A DNA stretch of 64,000 nt from Actinophytocola gossypii. GTDB taxonomy: Bacteria > Actinomycetota > Actinomycetes > Mycobacteriales > Pseudonocardiaceae. The translations under genes and the position numbers were made by a program. Positions within the stretch are counted from its first letter, which is position 1; each line of letters opens with the position of its first letter. The notes under the pieces were generated by a model, which saw only the letters and a list, made by a program, of their open reading frames with translations, was not told where the DNA came from and made no database searches. Where the stretch lies: positions 186,001 through 250,000 of the forward strand of contig NZ_JAFFZE010000022.1 of the NCBI RefSeq assembly GCF_025165815.1, in the 5' to 3' direction. Positions 16,086 to 34,496 of this stretch are shown one piece after another.

Positions 16086-19000
16086 TCAGTCTCGTTCGAG
16101 GGCGGCGTCCAGCTCAGCCAGGTAGTGCGCGACCGGGTGCAGGGTGACCAGCCCGCTGCCGGCTCCGGCCAGTTCGCCGGCCGCGGGGAGCAGGTCGGCC
16201 CGGCAGCGTTCCATCGCCGCGCGGTCGCCGCGCCGGATGGCGACCAGCGCGTGCAGGCAGGTGCGGGCCTCGAAGAGCAGGTCGCGGGGCGAGTCCGGGA
16301 TCGGTCCGGTGTCCTCGGGTCGCACCAGCGGGCGGCACCACGGTTCGTAGCCGCCGAAGCTCGCGGGTTCGCCGACGGGCAGGTCGTGGCGGAGGCGGTG
16401 GCAGAGCAGGGCAAGCTCGAGGATCCCGTCGTCCACACCGGACATTCCGGTGCCGGCCAGGCGCGCGGCGGCGGCGCGGTAGGCGGTCTCGGCCTCGGCC
16501 GGGTCGCCGGTCAGGGACGTGCGCATGGCCCGGTACCACTGGGTGAACACGCTCACCACGGGCAGGTCGTGGTCCTCCCCCAGCCGGTCCGCGGCCCGGG
16601 CGTGGTGGTCGGCGGTTGGAAGATCGGCCAGCGCGGCGTGTGCCTGGACGAGGATCAGGTGCCCCAACACCTCGAAGGTCACCAGGTGGTGCCGGCGGGC
16701 CAGGTCGACCAGCTCGGTGCCGATCGCGGCCCGGCGCGGTGCGAGGCCGGCGCGCTCGAACGACTGGATGAACCTGGCGTTCAGGGCGAACGCGAGCACG
16801 GCGGGGTCGCCGAGTTCCCTGGCCAGGGCCTCGGCCTCGCGGGCGGCGGCGCGGGCGCGGGCGCCGCCGGTGTTGCGCGACTCCAGCGCGAGGGTGGCGA
16901 GCAGGCGGCTGCGTTCGGCTACGGCGGTGGGCGGGAGCTGGGCCAGGGTGCGTTCGGTGACCGCGACGACCCGGGCGGCCAGCGCGGGGTCGTCGTTGGC
17001 GGTCCAGATCGCGGGGACGTCGAACGCGGCGAGCACCGCGGCCGTCCGGGACGGGTCGTCCAGGGTGTCGGCCAGGTCGAGGGCCTCGGCGCGGTACCGG
17101 CGGGCCTGGTCGAGCGCGCCGGTCACGGCCAGCGCGCGGACGAGGCCCATGACGATCGCCAGCCGTTCGGCGGTGTCGGGTCCGGCGTGGTCCAGCGCGG
17201 CCCGCCACAGCCGGGCGGCCTCGTGCGGGGCGTACCGGTGCTCGGCCCGCTCGGCGGCGGCGCGGGCGTACCGGGCGGCGTGTGGGCTGTGGGCGAGGAG
17301 GTGGTGGTGGGCCAGGGCGTCGACGTCGCCGGGACGCAGCGCTTCGATGGTCTCGGCGACGGCGGCGTGCCAGCGGGCGCGGCGGGAGCGGGACAGGTCG
17401 TGGTAGACGGTGTCACGGACCAGGTCGTGCGCGAACCGGAACCGGCCGGGGGCCTGCTCGACCAGGAAGCCCTGGCGGGTCGCGGTTTCGAGCGCGTCGA
17501 GGGCGTCCGGCCCGTGCAGGGCGGTGAGCACGTCGAGGTCGACGCCGGTGCCGATCACGGCGGCCTGCCGGACGGCGTCCCGGACCGGTTCGGGCAGTGC
17601 CGCGATCCGGTGGCGGACGACGTCGCGGACGCCGGGCGGGACGGCGTCCAGGTCGGTGTCCGCCAGGCGGGCGAGTTCCCGGACGAAGAACGGGTTGCCG
17701 CCGCTGCGCCGGTGGATCGCGGTGGCGGTCGCGTCGTCGACGTGGCGGCCGGTGACGGCCTGGACGAGGTCGGAGACGGCGTTCGGGGGCAACCCGCCGA
17801 GGTGGATCCGGACCGGTTCGGCGCGGGCCGCGCGGCCGAGCAACGTGACCAGGGCGGGTGGCGGGTCGGTGGTGCGGTGGGTCGCCAGCAGGAGGGCGGG
17901 GGCCCGGACGGGTTCGGTGACCACGGAGGCGAGCAGCGCGAGGGTCTCCTCACCCGCGTGGTGCAGGTCGTCGAGTACGAGCAGGAGAGGCGCGCGGTTC
18001 GCGACCTCGCCGAGGTGCGCGACGACGGCCCGGTGCCAGCCGAACCGGGCGGCGACGGGGTCGCTGCCGGCGGTGGGTGCGGCGGGGCCGTCGAGGGCGG
18101 TCAGGATCCGGGTCCACGGCCAGGCGGCGGGCAGGCCCTCGTCCTCCGGGTTGGCGCCCCACGCCACGGTCCAGCCGTGGGCGGCTGACCGCTTGGCGAA
18201 GGCCTCGGCCAGCGCGGTCTTGCCCGCACCGGCGTCCCCCGAGACGAGCACGAGCCCCAGCCTCTTTCCGGCGAGGACGGCGGACGCGGCCTCGTCGAGC
18301 CGGGCGAGTTCGACGCCCCGGCCGACGAGGGGTGTGGGCGAATGCGCGGGCTTGTCCGGCCGCGTCTGGTGGGCGAAGCGTGCCGGGTCGGCGGAATCGG
18401 GCGAGCGCTCGGGGTCGGCCGGACGCGCGGGCTCCGATGGGTGCGCGAGTTCCGGCGGGTGCGCGGGCTCCGCCGGACGCTCGGGTTCGGCGGTCACTGG
18501 CGCCGCCAGGTGCGGGGCCTGCGCCAGCACGTCCGACTCCAGCTGCCGGAGGGCTGGGCCGGGGTCGACGCCCAGGTCGGTGGCGAGTACCGCGCGGGCC
18601 CGGCGGAGCGCGCCGAGCGCGTCGCCCTGGCGTCCCGCTCGGTACAGGGCCAGCGCGAGCAGGCGCCAGGCGTCCTCGCGCCACGGGTGTGCCGTGACGT
18701 GTGTCTCCAGGTCGGGTACCGCCTCCGCCGGGCGGCCGTCGTCCAGTAGCGCCTGGGCTCGGCGTTCCAGGGCGAGCAGCCGCAGCTCGTCCAGGCGGGT
18801 GGCCTCCGCGCGGGCCCACGGCCGGTCGCCGAACTCCCCGTACGCGGGGCCGCGCCACAGGTCCAGGGCCTCCTCTAGGCGCGCCAGCACGGGTGGTCGG
18901 GTGGCCACCGTCGTCTCGAACCGCCAGGCGTCCACGTCGGAGACGTCCGGCACGTGCAGGGCGTAGCCGGGGCCGGACGTCACCAGGACGCGCGCGGGCC

Positions 19001-19244
19001 CGCGTGGTGGGCGGTGCGGCTCCAGTGCCCGGCGCAACGTCGACACGAACGTCCGCAGCGCGCCGACCGCGCCGTCCGGCGGCACCTCCCACAGGTCGTC
19101 GACCAGCCGGGTCACCGGCACCACCCGGCCGCGGGCGACCAGCAGGCGCGCCAGCACCGCGCGGTGCCGCGGGCCGCGGAGGTCGATCGGCCCGTGCTCG
19201 TTCTCGGCGATCAGCGGGCCGAGCACCCCGAACCGAACGGACAC
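16086..19244 (-). CDS. SARP/LuxR-like large ATPase regulator (BTAD-AAA-TPR)
   Basis: Transcriptional regulator of about 1,052 aa. The N-terminus (FGVLGPLIAENEHGPIDLRG) is an OmpR-like winged-helix SARP domain, followed by the bacterial transcriptional activation domain to about residue 240. Then comes a Pro/Glu/Ala/His-rich linker with repeated EPA/HP units. An AAA/STAND ATPase follows, with VSGDAGAGKTALAEAFAKR (Walker A near 335) and LLLVLDDLHHAGEE (Walker B), and the C-terminus is TPR-like helices. GTG at 19244 is chosen because the SARP fold begins there and TAGGGT lies exactly 7 nt upstream, a leaderless-type -10; an upstream ATG at 19322 would overlap the divergent hydrolase gene. Its target genes are unknown, and no biosynthetic cluster is adjacent. 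Confidence 0.88.
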   Translation of the reverse strand: MSVRFGVLGPLIAENEHGPIDLRGPRHRAVLARLLVARGRVVPVTRLVDDLWEVPPDGAVGALRTFVSTLRRALEPHRPPRGPARVLVTSGPGYALHVPDVSDVDAWRFETTVATRPPVLARLEEALDLWRGPAYGEFGDRPWARAEATRLDELRLLALERRAQALLDDGRPAEAVPDLETHVTAHPWREDAWRLLALALYRAGRQGDALGALRRARAVLATDLGVDPGPALRQLESDVLAQAPHLAAPVTAEPERPAEPAHPPELAHPSEPARPADPERSPDSADPARFAHQTRPDKPAHSPTPLVGRGVELARLDEAASAVLAGKRLGLVLVSGDAGAGKTALAEAFAKRSAAHGWTVAWGANPEDEGLPAAWPWTRILTALDGPAAPTAGSDPVAARFGWHRAVVAHLGEVANRAPLLLVLDDLHHAGEETLALLASVVTEPVRAPALLLATHRTTDPPPALVTLLGRAARAEPVRIHLGGLPPNAVSDLVQAVTGRHVDDATATAIHRRSGGNPFFVRELARLADTDLDAVPPGVRDVVRHRIAALPEPVRDAVRQAAVIGTGVDLDVLTALHGPDALDALETATRQGFLVEQAPGRFRFAHDLVRDTVYHDLSRSRRARWHAAVAETIEALRPGDVDALAHHHLLAHSPHAARYARAAAERAEHRYAPHEAARLWRAALDHAGPDTAERLAIVMGLVRALAVTGALDQARRYRAEALDLADTLDDPSRTAAVLAAFDVPAIWTANDDPALAARVVAVTERTLAQLPPTAVAERSRLLATLALESRNTGGARARAAAREAEALARELGDPAVLAFALNARFIQSFERAGLAPRRAAIGTELVDLARRHHLVTFEVLGHLILVQAHAALADLPTADHHARAADRLGEDHDLPVVSVFTQWYRAMRTSLTGDPAEAETAYRAAAARLAGTGMSGVDDGILELALLCHRLRHDLPVGEPASFGGYEPWCRPLVRPEDTGPIPDSPRDLLFEARTCLHALVAIRRGDRAAMERCRADLLPAAGELAGAGSGLVTLHPVAHYLAELDAALERD

Positions 19245-19311
19245 CGTGCGCACCCTATCCCGCTGACCCGGTACTGACCGGGCGCTGACCGGCGGCTCGC
19301 ACGCTGGTGCC

Positions 19312-26675: not shown

Positions 26676-26885
26676 GGGCTCAGCATGGCGCCGGCACCGG
26701 ACAGGGGACATCGGCCGGCGGTCGGCGCCGGGTTCGACTTTGGTCGGTAGCTGTCGCGGACGACGCAGGCCGCGAAACCGTCACATTTCCGACCTGTGCC
26801 CACGGGGCACCGGCACGACCTGCAGGGATCACCTAACGTGGGAGGTGGCGTCACGGTGCGTGGAACCGTGGGATTGGGGGAACGC

Positions 26886-28898
26886 GTGGACGAGACCGGG
26901 CCCAGACCGGGCGGCGAGCGATTACTCGTTCCCCGGCAGCTTCCCGCGCCGCCCGTGCATTTCGTCAACCGGCTTCCCGAACTGTCGCGTTTGGACTCCG
27001 TGGTCAACGCGGGGCGGGGAAGAACGCCCGGGATCGCCGTGTTGCGTGGTCCCGGCGGGATCGGGAAGTCCGCCCTCGCCCTGAACTGGCTGGAACGGGT
27101 GCGTCGGCGATTCAGTGACGGCGAGCTGTACGCGGGTCTGGCCTCCTCGGCGGGGCGACCGGTCGCCGTCGAGGACGTGTTGGGCGGGTTCCTCCGCGCG
27201 CTCGGGGTCGCGCCGGACCGGGTGCCGTCGAGCCTGGACGAACGGGCCGCGCTGTACCGGTCGGTGACCGACGGGCGGGCGGTGGCCGTGCTGCTCGAGG
27301 ACGCCGTGTCCGCGGCTCAGGTCAAGGTGCTGCTGCCGGCCTCGGCGGACAGCCTGGTCGTGGTCACCACCCGGCGGCCGCTCGCCGGGCTGCTCACCGA
27401 GGGCGCGGTCGTGGTGCCGGTCGACCCGCTCGACGAGGCGGGCGCCATCGAGCTGCTGGAGCGGCAGGTCGGCCCCGAGCGGGTGGCGACCGAGCACCGG
27501 CCGACCCGCACGCTCGTCTCGCTCTGCGCGGGCTTCCCGCTCGCGTTGTCCGTGGTGGCCGCCCAGCTGGTGCTGCGGCCGCACCGGTCGACCGCGCGGC
27601 TGGTCGACGAGCTGCGCAGCGAACGCCGACGATTGGACCTGTCCGTGGAGGAAGACCTGTCCGTCCGGGCCACCTTCGAGCTGTCCGTCCGCGCGCTGCC
27701 GGCGGACGCCATGGCCGCCTACCTGGCGATCGGGGTGCAGCCGGGGTCGCTCGTGTGCACCGAGCTGACCGCCGCCGCCTGCCGGATGGGCCAGCACCGG
27801 GCCCGTCAGGCCCTCGACGAGCTGGTCGACGCGAGCCTGCTCGACGAGGTCGACGACGGGCACTACCGCTGTCACGACCTGGTGCGCGCACACGCCAGGG
27901 TGGAGGCCGACGAACGACTCGATCTCGACGAGCGGCTGGCGGTCGCCCGACGCTCGCTGGAGTGGTACCTGCACGCCGCCCACGCGGCCGGGCGCACGGT
28001 GATGCCCGCCCGACCACCGATGACGCTGCCGGACACGACGAGTCGGTACGAACTGCCCGACGGCCTGGACCAGTACGCCGGCGCCCTCGACTGGCTCGAA
28101 CGACACCGGCACGACCTCGCCGCCGCGGTACGCCTGTCCGCCGAGACCGACCAGCACGCCCTGACCCATGCGCTCGGCCAGGCCATGCAGCCGCTGTTCT
28201 ACCTGCACCGCCACTACCGGGTAGCCGCCGAGGTTCACGAGCTGGCCATGGACGCCGCCGCGGCGATGGGCGACACCCGCGCGGAGGCGGGAATGCGCCG
28301 CCGCCTCGCCCGGGTACTGGTCCACCTCGACGAGCTTCCGCGAGCCCGCACGCAGATCGACACCCTCCTCCTGCGGGCCAGGGAGACCGGTGACCGCCGC
28401 GAGACCGCGCACGCGATGAAGAGCCTGGCCCGGCTGCACAGCCGGCGCGGGGAGCACCACCTGGCCGCGACGGCGCTGGAGGAGGTGGCGGAGATCCTCC
28501 GCGGCCTCGGCCTACGGCGAAGCCTTGCCCTCGCGCTGATCGAGTTGGGCGCGACGCTCGTTGAGCAGGACCTGCCCGGCGAGGCGGTGTCCCACCTCGA
28601 CCAGGCCAGGGCCCTGCTGCTGGCGCTGGACCCGCCCGACGAGTACAACGCGGTCCAGGCCGTGGTCGGGCTCGCCGACGCGCAGCTGCGCCGGGGCGAC
28701 CACGGGGCCGCCCTGGCGCTGCTCACCGACGCGCTCCCGGTCCTCTCCTCGCTCGGCTCGGCCTACCATCTCGGCCGCGCCCACGCGCTGCTCGCCGAAC
28801 TGCACACCGCGCGAGGTGAGCACGAGCGCGCGCGGGAGCACCGGCTCCAGGCCGACGACCTGCACGGGCGGGTCGCCGGCCCGGAGCGCGAGGACTAA
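26886..28898 (+). CDS. STAND NTPase-TPR regulator without a SARP domain, TTA codon
   Basis: 670-aa protein resembling the ATPase and TPR parts of AfsR-type regulators but lacking the N-terminal DNA-binding and BTAD domains. It has NRLPELSRLDSVV, Walker A LRGPGGIGKSALALNWL, the RxTTRRP sensor (VVVTTRRPLAG), GFPLALSVVAAQL and RCHDLVRAHARVEA, then C-terminal TPR helices. GTG at 26886 has GGGGG 5 nt upstream; an in-frame GTG at 26856 is possible. Codon 13 is TTA (26922-26924), rare in such genomes and a mark of bldA-dependent translation in Streptomyces. Its stop overlaps that of the convergent PfkB gene by 4 nt. Likely a signalling switch; ligand and output unknown. Confidence 0.85.
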   Translation: MDETGPRPGGERLLVPRQLPAPPVHFVNRLPELSRLDSVVNAGRGRTPGIAVLRGPGGIGKSALALNWLERVRRRFSDGELYAGLASSAGRPVAVEDVLGGFLRALGVAPDRVPSSLDERAALYRSVTDGRAVAVLLEDAVSAAQVKVLLPASADSLVVVTTRRPLAGLLTEGAVVVPVDPLDEAGAIELLERQVGPERVATEHRPTRTLVSLCAGFPLALSVVAAQLVLRPHRSTARLVDELRSERRRLDLSVEEDLSVRATFELSVRALPADAMAAYLAIGVQPGSLVCTELTAAACRMGQHRARQALDELVDASLLDEVDDGHYRCHDLVRAHARVEADERLDLDERLAVARRSLEWYLHAAHAAGRTVMPARPPMTLPDTTSRYELPDGLDQYAGALDWLERHRHDLAAAVRLSAETDQHALTHALGQAMQPLFYLHRHYRVAAEVHELAMDAAAAMGDTRAEAGMRRRLARVLVHLDELPRARTQIDTLLLRARETGDRRETAHAMKSLARLHSRRGEHHLAATALEEVAEILRGLGLRRSLALALIELGATLVEQDLPGEAVSHLDQARALLLALDPPDEYNAVQAVVGLADAQLRRGDHGAALALLTDALPVLSSLGSAYHLGRAHALLAELHTARGEHERAREHRLQADDLHGRVAGPERED

Positions 28899-29827
28899 CG
28901 CAACCGGTGCACGGCAGGCAACCCGTGCGTGTCCGCCAGCGCGGCGAGCCCGGCCGCGGAGAGGCCGAACTCCTCGTCCGGATGCCCGCCGACCTTCCAG
29001 CCGGCGCCGAGCACCGCGTACCGCGCGGCGAGCACGGGGTCGCCGATTTCGTGGTATCGGTGCACGAACACCGCCAGCAGCGTGTCGCCGGCGCCGTTGG
29101 TGTACCGGACACCCCGCGGCGTGGCCGCGTCGACCTGCCACACCGACCGGTCGTGACGCACCGCGACCACCGCCCCGCCGCTACCGCACCCGACCAGGGC
29201 CACCGGCGTCGCGAACCGGCGCCACAGCCCGTCGACCCACGCCAGTGGGCCGTCCGGCAGCCGCTCGTGCGAGCAGGCGAGGATCGTCGCCGCGCTGAAC
29301 CAGTCGCGCTTGTGCGGGTTGTCGACGTCGGTGTTGAGGTGCAGGTCGGTCGCGATCGGCACGCCGCGGCCGGCGGCGACCTCCACCAGGGACCGGGTGA
29401 ACGCGGTGCTGTTCACCAGCGCCACCTCGCACCCGGCCTCGTCCAGCAGCGCGCCGAACAGCTCCGGCGGGTAGCGCAGCGCCGGAAGGGAGCGCAGGTC
29501 GGTGGTACCGGCCCGGGTGCCGTCCCGGTCGTAGAGCACCAGCGACCTCGGCTGCTCGGCGCACACCTGCGTGGCCGGCCCGTACCAGCCGCGCTCCCGG
29601 AGCCCGTGCATGGCGAGGATCCCGAGCGGGTCGGAGCCGACGTAGGTGGCGAACGTGACCGAGGCCCCCAGCGCGCGCAGCGTGGTCGCCCCGGTCCAGC
29701 CCGTGCCGGACAACCGCACGCTGAGCCCGTTCGGCCGGTGCTGCCCGGAGGCGAACGGCACCGGGAAGGCCTCCACCGCGTGCGCCAACCGGACATTGAC
29801 CACACCGGCCACCGCGACGGCGGTCAT
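28895..29827 (-). CDS. PfkB-family sugar/nucleoside kinase
   Basis: 310-aa ribokinase-like kinase that should phosphorylate a sugar, nucleoside or related alcohol with ATP. Visible are the N-terminal VAGVVNVRLAHAVEAFPVPF with a following substrate-lid region, LRALGASVTFATYVGSDPLG (PfkB signature 1 area) and RYTNGAGDTLLAVFVHRY (signature 2, with the catalytic base Asp in GAGD). ATG at 29827 is preceded by AGGAGGG. The stop of the upstream 110-aa gene overlaps the start (TGATG), so it is the last gene of a coupled three-gene operon. Substrate cannot be inferred; the transferase partner suggests glycan or sugar-phosphate chemistry. Confidence 0.88.
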   Translation of the reverse strand: MTAVAVAGVVNVRLAHAVEAFPVPFASGQHRPNGLSVRLSGTGWTGATTLRALGASVTFATYVGSDPLGILAMHGLRERGWYGPATQVCAEQPRSLVLYDRDGTRAGTTDLRSLPALRYPPELFGALLDEAGCEVALVNSTAFTRSLVEVAAGRGVPIATDLHLNTDVDNPHKRDWFSAATILACSHERLPDGPLAWVDGLWRRFATPVALVGCGSGGAVVAVRHDRSVWQVDAATPRGVRYTNGAGDTLLAVFVHRYHEIGDPVLAARYAVLGAGWKVGGHPDEEFGLSAAGLAALADTHGLPAVHRLR

Positions 29828-30159
29828 CAGCGGTCCCTCCTGTTCCACTGTGGACCAAGCCAGGCGCCGTAGACGCTCCGGCCGAGGCGGACGGCGTCCT
29901 CCGCCGACCACGGGCGACCGCGAACGAGCCGGACGCGGACCCCGTCCGGCAGGCCGACCAGGCACCAGCGGCCGGCGCGCTGCCTGCTCACCACGACGAC
30001 GCACCCCGGGTAGCGCCGGCGCGCGACCGAGAGCCAGCGCCGCGCGAACCAGCCGGTCCGGTGCCGGGCGATCAGAATGTCGGCCGCCTGCGCCCACTCC
30101 CGGCCGTCGACGTCCACGACCGCGACCACGGCCGCGCGGGCGACGTCCCGCTGTCTCAT
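29827..30159 (-). CDS. Unknown 110-aa basic protein in the transferase-PfkB operon
   Basis: I do not recognise this protein. It starts MRQRDVARAAVVAVVDVDG and has an Arg/Trp-rich middle (RHRTGWFARRWLSVARRRYPG). A beta-rich stretch follows (CVVVVSRQRAGRWCLVGLPDGVR in two strands), ending SVYGAWLGPQWNRRDR. No signal peptide, membrane helix or metal motif is seen. It is real by context: its ATG overlaps the stop of the upstream transferase (ATGA) and its stop overlaps the PfkB start (TGATG), so all three are stoichiometrically coupled. It may be a small subunit or adaptor for either enzyme (inference). The shared, unusual high Arg and Trp content argues against a random open frame. Confidence 0.75.
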   Translation of the reverse strand: MRQRDVARAAVVAVVDVDGREWAQAADILIARHRTGWFARRWLSVARRRYPGCVVVVSRQRAGRWCLVGLPDGVRVRLVRGRPWSAEDAVRLGRSVYGAWLGPQWNRRDR

Positions 30160-31358
30160 CGCCACCGCCTCTCCCCCGCGACCGGGACCGGCACCGGCTC
30201 CACGGCGCGGTGCCGGCCGCGCGCGGTGATGCCGAGCAGCCGGTACATCTCCTGTCGCAGCAGCCGGTGCGACTGCCCCGGCCGCGACGTGACCAGCCGC
30301 GCGAACGCGTCCCGCGCGACCGTCGCCCGCCACTGCGCCGCGGCGAGCAACTGCGGCTCGATCGGCTGGGACCGGACGAGCCGGGGCGCGGTGCCGAGCA
30401 GTGTCTGCGGCGAGTCCGGGTTGAGCGACTCGATCGGCAGGTCCGTGCACAGCACCGGCTTGCCGAGCGCGGCCGCGTAGACGGTGGTCGAGCCCTGGTC
30501 GCCGATCACGTAGTCGGCGGCGATCGCGAAACCGCGCCAGTCCTCGTCCGGCTCGACCAGCAGCATGCCGCCGGTACGCGCCGAGCCGAGCCAGGACCGC
30601 ACCTGCCGCAGCCCGTGCCCGAACCAGACGCCGGGGTGCATCATCATCGCCACCCGGTAGCGCGCCGGGTCGAGCTGGCGGAGCAGGGTCGGCAGGTAGC
30701 GCTCGAACCGGCTGAACAGCGAGTGCGGGCCCCAGGTGGAGGTGACCAGCACGAGCCGCCGTTCCGGCCCGACGCCCAGTGCCGCGCGGTACTCGGCACG
30801 CTTGCGGGTGCTGGCGAGCATCCGGTCGAAGCAGGGGTCGCCCGCGACGAGCGCGACGTCGAGGGCCGGCGGGCACTGCCGTTCGAGCAGTTCGAGCTGC
30901 GAGTCGTGGGACAGCACCAGCGAGGACGGCAGCACCCGGCCGTCGCGGGTGAGTCGTCCGGCGTCAAGCCCGTAAACCGGGCCGGCGCTCCCGCCCGCCC
31001 GCTTTCCGAAGGACGCGCCGTGCGGGAAAACCATTAGCGGCGCGTGAATTCGATCATTGTCGGCGTGTGCCGCCGCGAGCGCCAGATCGAACCGCTCCCG
31101 AGTTGCCTGCGCCCAGGGAATCCGCATCGCGCCCAACGATTTCAGATAGTCCCCGACACCGCCGCTGAACACGGCTGGCGCCTGGCTGTAGACCAGTTGC
31201 ACTCTCGGGTCGGACTCGATCAGGTCGACCACGTCCAACAACCGCTGACCGGCCACCAGTGAGTGCACGGCAACGAGCACCTTCTTGCTCCCGACGCGGG
31301 AGACGTACCCGGGCGCGTCGAGCCCTATGGGCACCGGCTTCCATTCCTGTTCGGTCAT
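30156..31358 (-). CDS. GT-B-fold transferase-like protein (CDP-glycerol transferase-like)
   Basis: 400-aa cytoplasmic protein of uncertain function. An N-terminal Rossmann-like half (KKVLVAVHSLVAGQRLLDVVDLI, LMVFPHGASFGKR, LVLSHDSQLELL) and a C-terminal half (RLVLVTSTWGPHSLF, MMMHPGVWFGHG, ADYVIGDQGSTTVYAAALGKPVL) match the GT-B architecture of CDP-glycerol glycerophosphotransferases and UDP-GlcNAc 2-epimerases. The GDQGST...A..GKP segment is the usual donor-binding site. ATG at 31358 is preceded by GGGAGAGGGAGTG; an upstream ATG at 31415 would place the ribosome site inside the gene. First gene of a coupled operon with a 110-aa protein and a PfkB kinase; divergent from an AfsR-like regulator, a plausible controller. 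Confidence 0.75.
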   Translation of the reverse strand: MTEQEWKPVPIGLDAPGYVSRVGSKKVLVAVHSLVAGQRLLDVVDLIESDPRVQLVYSQAPAVFSGGVGDYLKSLGAMRIPWAQATRERFDLALAAAHADNDRIHAPLMVFPHGASFGKRAGGSAGPVYGLDAGRLTRDGRVLPSSLVLSHDSQLELLERQCPPALDVALVAGDPCFDRMLASTRKRAEYRAALGVGPERRLVLVTSTWGPHSLFSRFERYLPTLLRQLDPARYRVAMMMHPGVWFGHGLRQVRSWLGSARTGGMLLVEPDEDWRGFAIAADYVIGDQGSTTVYAAALGKPVLCTDLPIESLNPDSPQTLLGTAPRLVRSQPIEPQLLAAAQWRATVARDAFARLVTSRPGQSHRLLRQEMYRLLGITARGRHRAVEPVPVPVAGERRWR

Positions 31359-31550
31359 ATCACTCCCTCTCCCATACGACATGACGGGAGGGAGCTTGCG
31401 GCACCGCACGGACAACCGACTTTCAGATCACTTTCACTCGGCACACGAAGGAGTAACAGTTGAATATCAGCGCGTGACATCACTTAATTTGATGTTTCTT
31501 CGGGCCGACTCTGCTAGGGGAAATACGCCGAAACTGTGTGGGGGCGTAGG

Positions 31551-34496
31551 GTGCAGCTGCAAATTCTGGGGTCCGTGCAGATGACCGTGCACGGAGCACG
31601 CGCGACGGTCGGTCCCACGAAGATCCGTAGCCTGCTCGGGATACTGGCGTACCGGTGCAACGAGCCGGTCGCGCTGAGCGTCCTGGCCGAGGCGCTGTGG
31701 GATGACGACGGACCGACGGATCGGATCGCGACCCTTCAGTCCTACAAGTCGCGGTTGTGCCGGACGCTCGAGCTGCACGGGCTCGCCGAGGTGAGCAGAG
31801 AGCACGGCGGGTACCGCCTGCGCATCGATCCATCCGCAGTGGACTTCCACCGCTTCGAGGCCACGGTCCGCGACGGACACCGAGCGGCCGGTCGGGGAGA
31901 TCACGCCGCGGCGGCCGATCTGTTCGATGCCGCGGTGCGCCTGTGGCGCGGTCCGCTGATCGCCGACCTCAGCACGACCTGGGCTCGTCGGCAGCAGGAA
32001 TCGCTCAGGATACGGAACCTGCTGCCAGCTCAGTGCGCGCTGCTCGAGGCGAAGCTGCGGCTCGCCGACCATGACTTCGTTCTCGGCGCTCTGTCGTCGT
32101 TGCTGGACGACTACCCGCTCGAGGACCAGCCGGCAATGCTCTTGATGCGCGCGCTGGCGGCCGCGAATCGAGCGCAGGAGGTGCGGCCCTTCTTCCGCGA
32201 CTACTGCCAGCGATTACAGGACGAGCACGGCACTGTCCCCGGTGCGGATCTCATGGCGACGTACCAGGAAGTCACCGGGCGAGGCGAGACCAGGACGCAC
32301 CCCGCGCCTGCTCCGAGACCGCCCAGGGCGACGCCGCACTTCATCGGCCGCGAGCACCTGATCGGGCAACTCGACGCGCTGCTGACCGGGCCCGAGCCTC
32401 CCACGACGCTGGTGGCACTCGACGGTCAGCCCGGCGTCGGCAAGACCACCCTCGTCAAGCACTGGGCCCACAGCCGGCAGCACCTCTTTCCGGACGGGGT
32501 CCTGCACGCCGACCTCGGCGGCTACTCCACCACCGGCCCGGTCGAGCCGGGGACGGCGATCGCGGGCTTCCTCGACATGCTCGACGTTCCGGCCGCCGAC
32601 GTGCCACCCACCACCGAGGACCGAGCGGCGCTGCTGCGTCAGCGGCTCGTCGGCCGGCGTGTGCTCGTCGTCATCGACAACGTGCGGAACAGCTCGCACG
32701 TCCGTCCCGTCCTGGCCGCCGTCGCGAACTGCCCTACCGTGATCACCAGTCGTCAGCGACTGACCGGGAACGCCGTTCGGGACGGGGCCGAGCGGTTCAC
32801 CGTGCCGGAACTCAGCACGAACGAGGCGGCCGGCCTGCTGGCGGCCCACGTCGGCCCGAGGACAGCCGACGAGCCGGCCGCAGTGGCCGAGTTCGTCGCG
32901 CTGTGCGACCGGCTGCCGATGGCGGTGTGTATCGCCGGGCAGTACGCGGCGTCTCGGCCCGCGGTGCCGATCGGCGACCTGGCCGACGAACTGCGCCAGA
33001 CCCGACGGCTGCTCGACATCGGCTCACACGGCGACGACACCACTCTCCGGTCCACCTACGCGCTGTCCTACCGAGCACTCCCCGCCGCGCAGGCCAGGCT
33101 GTTCAGGTTGATCGGTCTGTTGCCCGCGCGTTTCTCGGTGGCGGCGGCCGGAGCGGTGAGCGCGGTGCGGCGACCCGATGTCGACGACCTGTTGGACGGG
33201 CTGGTCAGCGCGCACCTGGTGGAGCAGGAGGGTGCGGGACGGTTCCGGATTCACGACCTGTTGCACCAGTTCGCGGCCGACAGCGCGGACGAGGACGAGC
33301 CGGCAGCCGACCGCGAAGCCTCCATGCTGCGGCTACTGACCTGGTACGTGTGTTCCGCCAGGAACGCGAGGCCGTTCCTCACCTCCGATCCGCACGACGT
33401 CCCGGAACTGACCGGGGTGGAGCCGGTGACCGCACGCGAGTTCGTCGACCGCGACGACGCCCGCGCGTGGTTCACTCTCGAACGGAAGACCATGGTGTCA
33501 CTGGTGCAGCGCGCCGGCGAACAAGGGCACCACGAACACGTCTGGCGCCTGGCGGCCTGCTTGAACCTGGTCAACACCCAGGGCGACCTGCACGAGATGC
33601 TCGGGGTGCACCAGCGGGGAGCCGAGTCGGCGGCGATCGTCGGTCAGCGGGTGGCGGAGGCCGGCTGCCTGAACAACGTCGGTTACATCCACCAGAAGCT
33701 GCAGGACGCGGTGCGGGCCGGCCGCTACTTCAAGCAGGCATACCACGCATTTCACGCCGTGGGTGAGACCTATGGCGAGGCGGTCAGCTTGCACAACATC
33801 GGCACGACGCATCTGGAGCTCGGTGACCCGGCCGACGCCATCGCGTGGTACCGCCGGGCGCTGCACCTGTTCAGTGCGGCCGACCAGGAGTGGGCGATCG
33901 CGAACGTGTACAGCAGGCTCGGCGAGGCATTTCGTCGGCTGGACCAGTTCGACGAGGCGGACTCGCACTACCAGCGAGCCTGGCGAATCCACGAGAAGCT
34001 CGGTGACCAGCGGCGCCAGGGCGAGGTGTTGAACCGTTTGGCGCGGCTGTACCTCGACCGGGACCAGCCACGGGACGCCGTCGCCTTCGGGCAACACGCG
34101 CTGGATCTCCACGACCGGACCGGCGACCGCGACAGCGCCGCCGAGGTGCTGTGCACGCTCGCCGAAGCCCGGCTGAGGCTCGGCGAGCGTGCAGAGGCCA
34201 CAGCGCACGCGTCGGAAGCGGCACGGACCTACGCCGAGATGGGCAACGTCTCGGGGCAGGCGACGGCGCTGTCCGTGCTCACCGAGGCCCAAGCTGCGGC
34301 CGGTGAGGAGGACCAGGCCCGGACGACGTGGGCACAGGTCACGGAGTTGCTCGACGGCATTGACGACGAGCGCGCTTCGAACGCCAGGGAGCGCTTACGG
34401 TGGCACAGCCCGTCAGTACCTGCCCCACGCTCGACCGAACCGGCCATGACCCGATCGCGTGTCACCCGATCCAACCACCTAATGAAGCCTGAGTAG
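31551..34496 (+). CDS. AfsR/SARP-type regulator with NB-ARC and TPR domains, two TTA codons
   Basis: 981-aa pathway regulator. Domains: OmpR-like winged helix (about 1-90: QLQILGSVQMTVHGARATVGPTKIRSLLGILAY split in two), BTAD (about 95-240), and NB-ARC ATPase with Walker A DGQPGVGKTTLVKHW, Walker B VLVVIDNVRN, TSRQRLTG and RLPMAVCIAGQYA. Multiple TPRs follow (about 700-950, e.g. GEAVSLHNIGTTHLELGDPADAIAWYRRA in two pieces). GTG at 31551 is chosen because the SARP fold starts there; GTG at 31536 is an alternative. TTA codons at 32214-32216 and 34395-34397 suggest bldA-type control. Divergent from the transferase operon, which it probably activates. Codon use looks slightly more relaxed than in neighbours. 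Confidence 0.9.
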   Translation: MQLQILGSVQMTVHGARATVGPTKIRSLLGILAYRCNEPVALSVLAEALWDDDGPTDRIATLQSYKSRLCRTLELHGLAEVSREHGGYRLRIDPSAVDFHRFEATVRDGHRAAGRGDHAAAADLFDAAVRLWRGPLIADLSTTWARRQQESLRIRNLLPAQCALLEAKLRLADHDFVLGALSSLLDDYPLEDQPAMLLMRALAAANRAQEVRPFFRDYCQRLQDEHGTVPGADLMATYQEVTGRGETRTHPAPAPRPPRATPHFIGREHLIGQLDALLTGPEPPTTLVALDGQPGVGKTTLVKHWAHSRQHLFPDGVLHADLGGYSTTGPVEPGTAIAGFLDMLDVPAADVPPTTEDRAALLRQRLVGRRVLVVIDNVRNSSHVRPVLAAVANCPTVITSRQRLTGNAVRDGAERFTVPELSTNEAAGLLAAHVGPRTADEPAAVAEFVALCDRLPMAVCIAGQYAASRPAVPIGDLADELRQTRRLLDIGSHGDDTTLRSTYALSYRALPAAQARLFRLIGLLPARFSVAAAGAVSAVRRPDVDDLLDGLVSAHLVEQEGAGRFRIHDLLHQFAADSADEDEPAADREASMLRLLTWYVCSARNARPFLTSDPHDVPELTGVEPVTAREFVDRDDARAWFTLERKTMVSLVQRAGEQGHHEHVWRLAACLNLVNTQGDLHEMLGVHQRGAESAAIVGQRVAEAGCLNNVGYIHQKLQDAVRAGRYFKQAYHAFHAVGETYGEAVSLHNIGTTHLELGDPADAIAWYRRALHLFSAADQEWAIANVYSRLGEAFRRLDQFDEADSHYQRAWRIHEKLGDQRRQGEVLNRLARLYLDRDQPRDAVAFGQHALDLHDRTGDRDSAAEVLCTLAEARLRLGERAEATAHASEAARTYAEMGNVSGQATALSVLTEAQAAAGEEDQARTTWAQVTELLDGIDDERASNARERLRWHSPSVPAPRSTEPAMTRSRVTRSNHLMKPE

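Follow-up and report, generated by a model that had tools for sequence, protein, structure and literature searches.

The SARPs have been described as activators of antibiotic biosynthesis (PMC10936776; PMC10972967), acting at direct repeats that are 11 or 22 base pairs (bp) apart (PMC10936776). AfsR of Streptomyces coelicolor (NF053617), a large SARP with the domain order BTAD, NB-ARC, TPR, stays inhibited through its NOD and TPR regions as long as no ATP is bound, and its ligand is given there as not known (PMC10936776). Two other STAND regulators, MalT and GutR, are induced by maltotriose and glucitol, respectively (PMC10936776). In filamentous bacteria, RHIM-like BASS amyloid motifs are found at the N-termini of NLRs and the C-termini of Bell proteins, for which a role in cell death has been proposed (Dyrka et al. 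2020, as cited in PMC7889193 and PMC8086366). Glycosyltransferase folds have also been tied to STAND ATPases in multicellular bacteria, in the GT4-STAND proteins proposed to counter invaders (PMC8195603). Among enzymes, the closest described proteins are the GT-B-fold CDP-glycerol glycerophosphotransferases (PF04464, TagF/TarL) and the acarbose kinase Mak1, an acarbose 7-phosphotransferase. Here we investigate a locus of Actinophytocola gossypii, contained in a stretch of 64,000 nucleotides (contig NZ_JAFFZE010000022.1, positions 186,001 to 250,000; hereafter the window), in which a transferase-like gene, A, a small gene, B, and a sugar kinase gene, C, are flanked by two STAND proteins, one a transcription activator and the other NLR-like.

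The locus represents a module that recurs in actinomycetes, made up of a GT-B transferase-like enzyme and a STAND ATPase. Its components belong to known superfamilies; for the module itself and for the A family we found no description in an open-licence library, going by search listings and a small number of papers. In the window, A (30156-31358, 400 amino acids), B (29827-30159, 110 amino acids) and C (28895-29827, 310 amino acids) are all on the reverse strand, with an overlap of 4 nucleotides between A and B (ATGA) and of 1 nucleotide between B and C (TGATG), as had been reported in the preliminary description. The lone STAND ATPase, an NB-ARC-TPR protein (26856-28898, forward strand, alternative start GTG at 26796), is convergent with them, its 3' end overlapping that of C by 4 nucleotides. 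On the other side is a divergent AfsR-like large SARP with BTAD, NB-ARC and TPR domains (31551-34496, forward strand, alternative start GTG at 31536), called SARP-STAND below. The two flanking genes had likewise been recognized correctly, as an AfsR-type activator and a lone STAND.

Two sets of loci were compared. The first has 40 stretches, picked mostly by score. For the second, a single pattern yielded at least 597 candidate stretches and 450 confirmed relatives, of which the best 80 were kept; all 80 are from actinomycetes according to the names in the record titles, and A was called in 77, leaving out L097, L132 and L152. The sets overlap (at least L036/L077, L037/L085, L041/L154 and L054/L076), which affects the 105 STAND N-termini and both sets of neighbour counts given below, and loci close to contig ends may conceal neighbouring genes. 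Pooling the sets and removing duplicate A sequences gave 115 distinct A genes.

What travels with A? A lone STAND is within five genes of A in 102 of the 115, a SARP-STAND within three genes in 86, and both are present in 81, so that the association with AfsR-like and STAND proteins suggested earlier is strong for A. The lone STAND is convergent and downstream within four genes in 32/40 loci of the first set and 63/77 of the second, and the SARP-STAND is divergent and upstream in 20/40 and 66/77; 19 and 56 loci have both. Of the genes at least six positions from A, 1/94 and 1/188 in the two sets are STANDs. In five Nonomuraea loci and one Microtetraspora locus the STAND is instead beyond the SARP, so the set stays together although its order changes. 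The kinase is a less constant companion, being downstream of 22/115 A genes and not found beside the other 93. The three-gene operon was therefore rejected as the conserved unit, and the self-contained pathway that had been proposed from the window alone is not supported as a fixed set of three genes.

Linkage of transferase and kinase in other genomes, on which that proposal had been made to depend, does exist. The architectures of the 115 comprise A alone (54, including L055_9 and L075_7, which were cut by the gene caller yet have a B-like C-terminus), A with an unassigned small gene (4), A-B (17), A fused to a B-like domain (at least 17, by a labelling model derived partly from the fused domains themselves), A with another extension (1), A-B-C (13) and A-C (9). 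In a tree of A made by a quick method (111 rows, omitting L116_0, L055_9, L075_7 and L063_4), the window sequence groups with those of Actinophytocola oryzae, Actinokineospora iranica and Amycolatopsis anabasis, all A-B-C (support 100). The remaining A-B-C and A-C rows are from Streptosporangiaceae, Thermomonosporaceae and one metagenome-assembled genome of the Streptosporangiales, which places the linkage in two separate parts of the tree, Pseudonocardiaceae and Streptosporangiaceae/Thermomonosporaceae. The minimum numbers of label changes are 4 for A-B-C, 2 for A-C and 3 for fusion. From this scatter and these counts, the link between A and C has been retained or formed repeatedly, and the module can do without C. 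Where A is lengthened at the C-terminal end by a long segment (B-like in 17 cases, of another kind in 1), an adjacent SARP-STAND is present in 0/18 and a lone STAND in 13/18, against 86 and 86 for the other 94 (L116_0, L055_9 and L075_7 being left out of this count); thus A and the lone STAND form the smallest constant set.

The two genes have also diverged together. Distances between A proteins and between their STANDs are correlated (Mantel r 0.83, 95 pairs, 0/1000 permutations as high), and the STAND of the nearest A is among the three nearest STANDs in 73/95. In six within-genome pairs of paralogues, of seven found, the STAND distances could be used and are 0.60-0.75, compared with 0.63 for the median pair, so these copies have STANDs of their own. 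A search at E<=0.001 found A in 56 of 298 genomes of the order and 18 of its 77 genera; the 56 matches fall into 49 strong ones, with E values up to 1.2e-38, and 7 weak ones, with E values of at least 1.2e-6. A profile search of the class found it in 40/394 genomes. The module is present in at least the Pseudonocardiaceae, Micromonosporaceae, Streptosporangiaceae, Thermomonosporaceae and Streptomycetaceae. Matches to A were also found in 7 of 72,556 plasmid records. In the two of these seven that were read, the annotation of the matching gene is hypothetical protein; one of the two lists an 'ATP-binding protein' as the adjacent gene, in convergent orientation, and the other has none such listed there.

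The preliminary description had likened A to a CDP-glycerol transferase, and this stands in part. The window protein has no Pfam match at E<=1, does not reach the Pfam gathering score for Glyphos_transf (PF04464) and has no match in NCBIfam or PADLOC. At the level of profiles the likeness can be seen. A profile built from 50 A proteins can be aligned along its length with one of 17 PF04464 proteins (hhalign 82%, E 1.2e-6; the strand of the PF04464 sequences was picked by counts of HG, HP and DYSS-type motifs), which pairs PHG..K of A with WHG..K, the histidine of HP with a conserved histidine, and GDxGS with TDYSS, so that the HG..K, H and D-x-S positions coincide. The fold predicted for a naturally fused A-B protein of Saccharothrix sp. 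(L134; mean predicted local distance difference test, pLDDT, 89.9), used in place of the window protein, has TagF as its top-ranked Foldseek match (E 1.4e-10). Comparison by VIA gives Z 20.8 for TagF (4.3 A, 328 aligned) and Z 22.2 for a UDP-GlcNAc 2-epimerase (4.4 A, 319 aligned), so epimerase structures match equally well or better. Judged by this predicted fold and the profiles, A is a GT-B transferase-like enzyme distantly resembling both CDP-polyol phosphotransferases (TagF) and UDP-GlcNAc 2-epimerases, and is not a member of PF04464. A transferase-like family, without a Pfam or NCBIfam match in its window copy, is inherited beside STAND switch proteins.

Some relatives of A differ in organization. 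In ten Actinomadura loci (L119, L124, L128, L129, L131, L135, L136, L138, L139 and L140) a tandem pair of A genes is between the SARP-STAND and the lone STAND, and in six of the ten a B-like gene of 164-180 amino acids is next. In L056 (G294:C48) a gene call of 1003 amino acids begins with a part of about 430 residues without assignment, followed by a fused A-B protein.

Gene B had been put forward as an unrecognized small protein. It has no Pfam match at E<=1 and none in NCBIfam or PADLOC, yet it is not a new orphan, a possibility ruled out by profile comparisons with the PfkB half and with the domain fused to A. When 17 B-family proteins are combined in a profile, it aligns with a profile of 17 C proteins across the C-terminal kinase half (hhalign 99.2%, E 8.6e-20), and a B profile of only three sequences matches the C proteins of relatives, down to E 6.5e-11. 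The C-terminal extension of the long A proteins, where the B-like domain is fused to A in at least 17 relatives, gives 99.2% (E 6.8e-20) when aligned with B and 98.3% (E 1.8e-14) with the PfkB half. The control comparison of A with C gives 0.2%, and that of the B profile with a first A alignment containing eight fused members gives 23%, confined to the fused columns. Going by these alignments B is a PfkB homologue, equivalent to the C-terminal half alone; it lacks both the GAGD motif and the N-terminal substrate half and is not predicted to be an active PfkB kinase. The small protein has relatives, and lack of conservation was what the preliminary description had named as refuting its proposal: at E<=0.001 they are present in 5/60 genomes including that of the window, the best having 52% identity and coming from the same genus. 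A codon-usage gene caller, trained on eight window genes that included A, C and both STAND genes and excluded B, also predicts B, weakly (score 24 for 110 amino acids). The fusions in relatives make it most likely, by the Rosetta-stone argument, that B binds A. A degenerate kinase half would then have been retained, free or fused, as the likely partner of a transferase. In three Lentzea loci (L081, L084 and L087) the 3' end of A is overlapped by a gene of 78-80 amino acids whose product, by eye, is similar to no more than the final portion of the B domain, and which is perhaps a further stage of decay.

How might these parts work together? The reading that we favour, tentatively and with a confidence slightly short of even, is that of sugar-transfer machinery switched by a regulator and tied to an NLR-like sensor, its chemistry and purpose being what we infer. 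The SARP-STAND would be freed by ATP binding as in AfsR, and perhaps by a ligand, and would bind the repeats next to A and turn on A-B-C. A would use an activated donor to transfer a sugar or polyol-phosphate unit to an acceptor, with B as a non-catalytic subunit riding on it, and C would phosphorylate the sugar substrate or product. The lone STAND would sense or respond to the outcome. Where relatives combine the amyloid-like motif with a neighbour of the Bell kind, this STAND is probably connected with a response of the cell-death type. Because two STANDs flank a single enzyme, the product or target of this enzyme may be what the orphan receptors sense, and the module offers a way to test, in laboratory Streptomyces, what it is that the NB-ARC-TPR receptors of bacteria detect.

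The window repeat fits the proposed switch. Between A and the divergent regulator is the direct repeat ACTTTCA-gatc-ACTTTCA (31419-31436), with an 11-bp period, a candidate SARP binding site that could serve A, the regulator or both. Exact 6-mer repeats at 11-bp spacing occur in 29 of 69 gaps between A and a SARP-STAND, compared with a mean of 4.5/69 in shuffles, 23/173 in other divergent gaps of the same loci and 57/531 in all other gaps, divergent ones included. When A genes are collapsed at 75% identity the proportion is 22/42 (Fisher p 2.8e-7 against the 23/173). The regulator itself has the large-SARP pattern, with BTAD at 87.7 bits (cut-off 22.1), NB-ARC at 39.8 (23.5) and TPR_12 at 87.6 (30.1); no Pfam row for an N-terminal DNA-binding domain was among the matches listed, and PADLOC gave a TPR model and one weak match only. 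It resembles AfsR in domain order and in the divergent gap with 11-bp repeats. Unlike AfsR, it has a transferase-like gene and a lone STAND as its partners, and its 386.3 bits against the AfsR equivalog NF053617 (cut-off 1430) indicate that it is not AfsR itself.

A SARP beside a transferase and a kinase could also belong to a locus for a specialized metabolite or for self-resistance. In such a locus the cluster-situated SARP would drive a transferase that glycosylates, and a kinase that phosphorylates, an antibiotic or inhibitor, as the acarbose kinase acts on acarbose, and the lone STAND would be a second regulator. We consider this unlikely. The third gene is a sugar kinase, as had been proposed: it matches Pfam PfkB with 33.2 bits (cut-off 25.8) and has a GAGD motif at residues 245-248, which is kept in 21/21 members of the C cluster in the 80-locus set. 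Its nearest solved relative is Mak1 (6wb4; E 4.8e-9 by single sequence, and 3.1e-24 by a profile that matches over most of the length), and the general role of SARPs in antibiotic biosynthesis (PMC10936776; PMC10972967) points the same way, as does a gene that by eye is P450-like and recurs near A (cluster c4, 13 genes in the 80-locus set). However, no acarbose genes were noticed around C, no core gene for a polyketide, nonribosomal peptide or ribosomally synthesized and post-translationally modified peptide was seen next to A in the window gene list by eye, and C is absent beside 93/115 A genes. At E<=1e-40 the C profile finds 4/298 genomes of the order, those being the window genome and G261, where C is linked to A, and two others in which the kinase is without A or STAND in the stretch read.

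Are the STANDs instead part of a defence against invaders? Many lone STANDs of the family have an N-terminus approximating N..SG.V.G..VQAG.I.GG.H. A similar motif ends the small proteins of cluster c3 (109-134 amino acids), mostly beside the lone STAND, at 17 loci of the 80-locus set (for example L082, L085 and L128). A model built only from the C-termini of 17 such small neighbours, with E calculated for 1000 sequences, matches 66/105 lone-STAND N-termini at E<=0.1 and 44 at E<=0.01, and matches 0/105 shuffled sequences, 0/92 SARP-STANDs and 0/132 A proteins. Among 1166 other proteins 27 match, and the 26 listed are small proteins of 71-141 amino acids, the seeds included. An initial regular expression for the motif was too strict (11/36 and 20/69 STANDs; 19/744 proteins below 300 amino acids) and was replaced by this profile. 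The STANDs of Actinokineospora iranica and Amycolatopsis anabasis match at E<=0.01. The label Bell for cluster c3 comes from gene place and C-terminus, Pfam giving no match over its cut-off, and a Bell-domain model found no Bell-STAND fusion. Small proteins similar to cluster c3 are also present in the 40-stretch set.

These relatives thus share with the NLR/Bell amyloid pairs (PMC7889193; PMC8086366) a motif of the V-Q-A-G/R type, common to the N-terminus of an NB-ARC-TPR protein and the C-terminus of its small neighbour. This lends some weight to a conflict or abortive-infection module, in which the STAND and SARP-STAND would sense an invader, A would act as effector on a molecule of the cell or the invader, and the BASS/Bell branch would kill the cell. 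The proposed cell-death role of NLR/Bell pairs carrying BASS motifs (PMC7889193) and the proposed counter-invader role of GT4-STAND proteins (PMC8195603) would be its precedents. We consider it as unlikely as the metabolite or resistance locus. The window copy is without the motif, A and the lone STAND are convergent and not an effector operon, and the GT4 protein MshA ranks below TagF by E in the Foldseek list. None of A, B, C and the lone STAND has a PADLOC match, and A was found in 0 of 50,697 phage records. The described systems differ from the module in further ways. The parts of the NLR/Bell papers used here mention no GT-B enzyme, pseudo-PfkB or PfkB. The GT4-STAND proteins, as presented in the part of that paper used here, are mostly fused or in one operon and of the GT4 type; the window has separate convergent genes, with a GT-B domain like that of TagF and epimerases.

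Less probable again is a part in decoration of the cell envelope, in which A would, under developmental control, attach a sugar or a polyol-phosphate to a glycopolymer of wall or lipid and C would make the precursor. The remote alignment of A with PF04464 and the top rank of TagF speak for it, but by eye there are no teichoic-acid-type genes beside A in the window, PF04464 is without a match in the window genome, and the patchy spread of A (56/298 genomes of the order, 7 of them weak) is unlike that of a housekeeping wall step.

Very improbable is that a phosphorylated sugar or glycoside, the product of A and C, would be an intracellular alarm signal, binding the TPR sensors of the SARP-STAND, which would amplify A-B-C, and of the lone STAND, whose RHIM-like copies would seed amyloid formation of a Bell-type killer; sugar sensing by STANDs has its precedent in MalT and GutR (PMC10936776), and such a circuit, if real, would be one of immunity or cell death with a sugar-phosphate as second messenger.

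To return to the regulator-switched sugar-transfer machinery, several results weigh against it. No search yielded a known function for any member of the module. The fold does not divide transferase from epimerase, and no solved structure matches A by sequence below E 0.09, the best PDB matches, PaJOS (E 0.091) and a mitoribosomal protein (E 0.3), both being taken as chance. Weak Pfam matches in 30 A proteins are spread over DUF6365 (4 members, best E 0.0033), Glyphos_transf (2, 0.027), Epimerase_2 (1, 0.016) and ABM (1, 0.078). For B, the predicted model (pLDDT 86.8) has no Foldseek match at E<=1e-3, and its best VIA results, Z 7.1 for a CoaBC domain and 6.2 for ribokinase-family chains, are below the level called meaningful; because the structure search is weak, the identity of B rests on the profiles. 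The B profile also matches NapD weakly (E 0.0018, 36 residues), which we took as chance. A and the lone STAND are convergent and hence not in one operon, their correlation falls to r 0.36 at A distances above 0.5, and their co-divergence could reflect a shared genome history. Neither the window STAND nor that of Actinophytocola oryzae matches the motif model, and the amyloid branch is therefore a trait of the wider family, not of the window copy. Repeats at 12-bp spacing are raised too (19/69 gaps between A and SARP against 29/173 other divergent gaps), and no clear -10 element was seen by eye at the expected distance from the window repeat.

Other genes of the same genome resemble parts of this locus. 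A second large SARP-like regulator of 1055 amino acids, recognized by eye from its N-terminus and length, is present in the window at 16086-19253 on the reverse strand. Partial A sequences were found on another contig (G000:C47) at 231042-231560 (L182) and 279454-280022 (L183). L182 adjoins a truncated STAND of 336 amino acids and L183 is in a stretch without a called gene; both look like decayed copies of the module.

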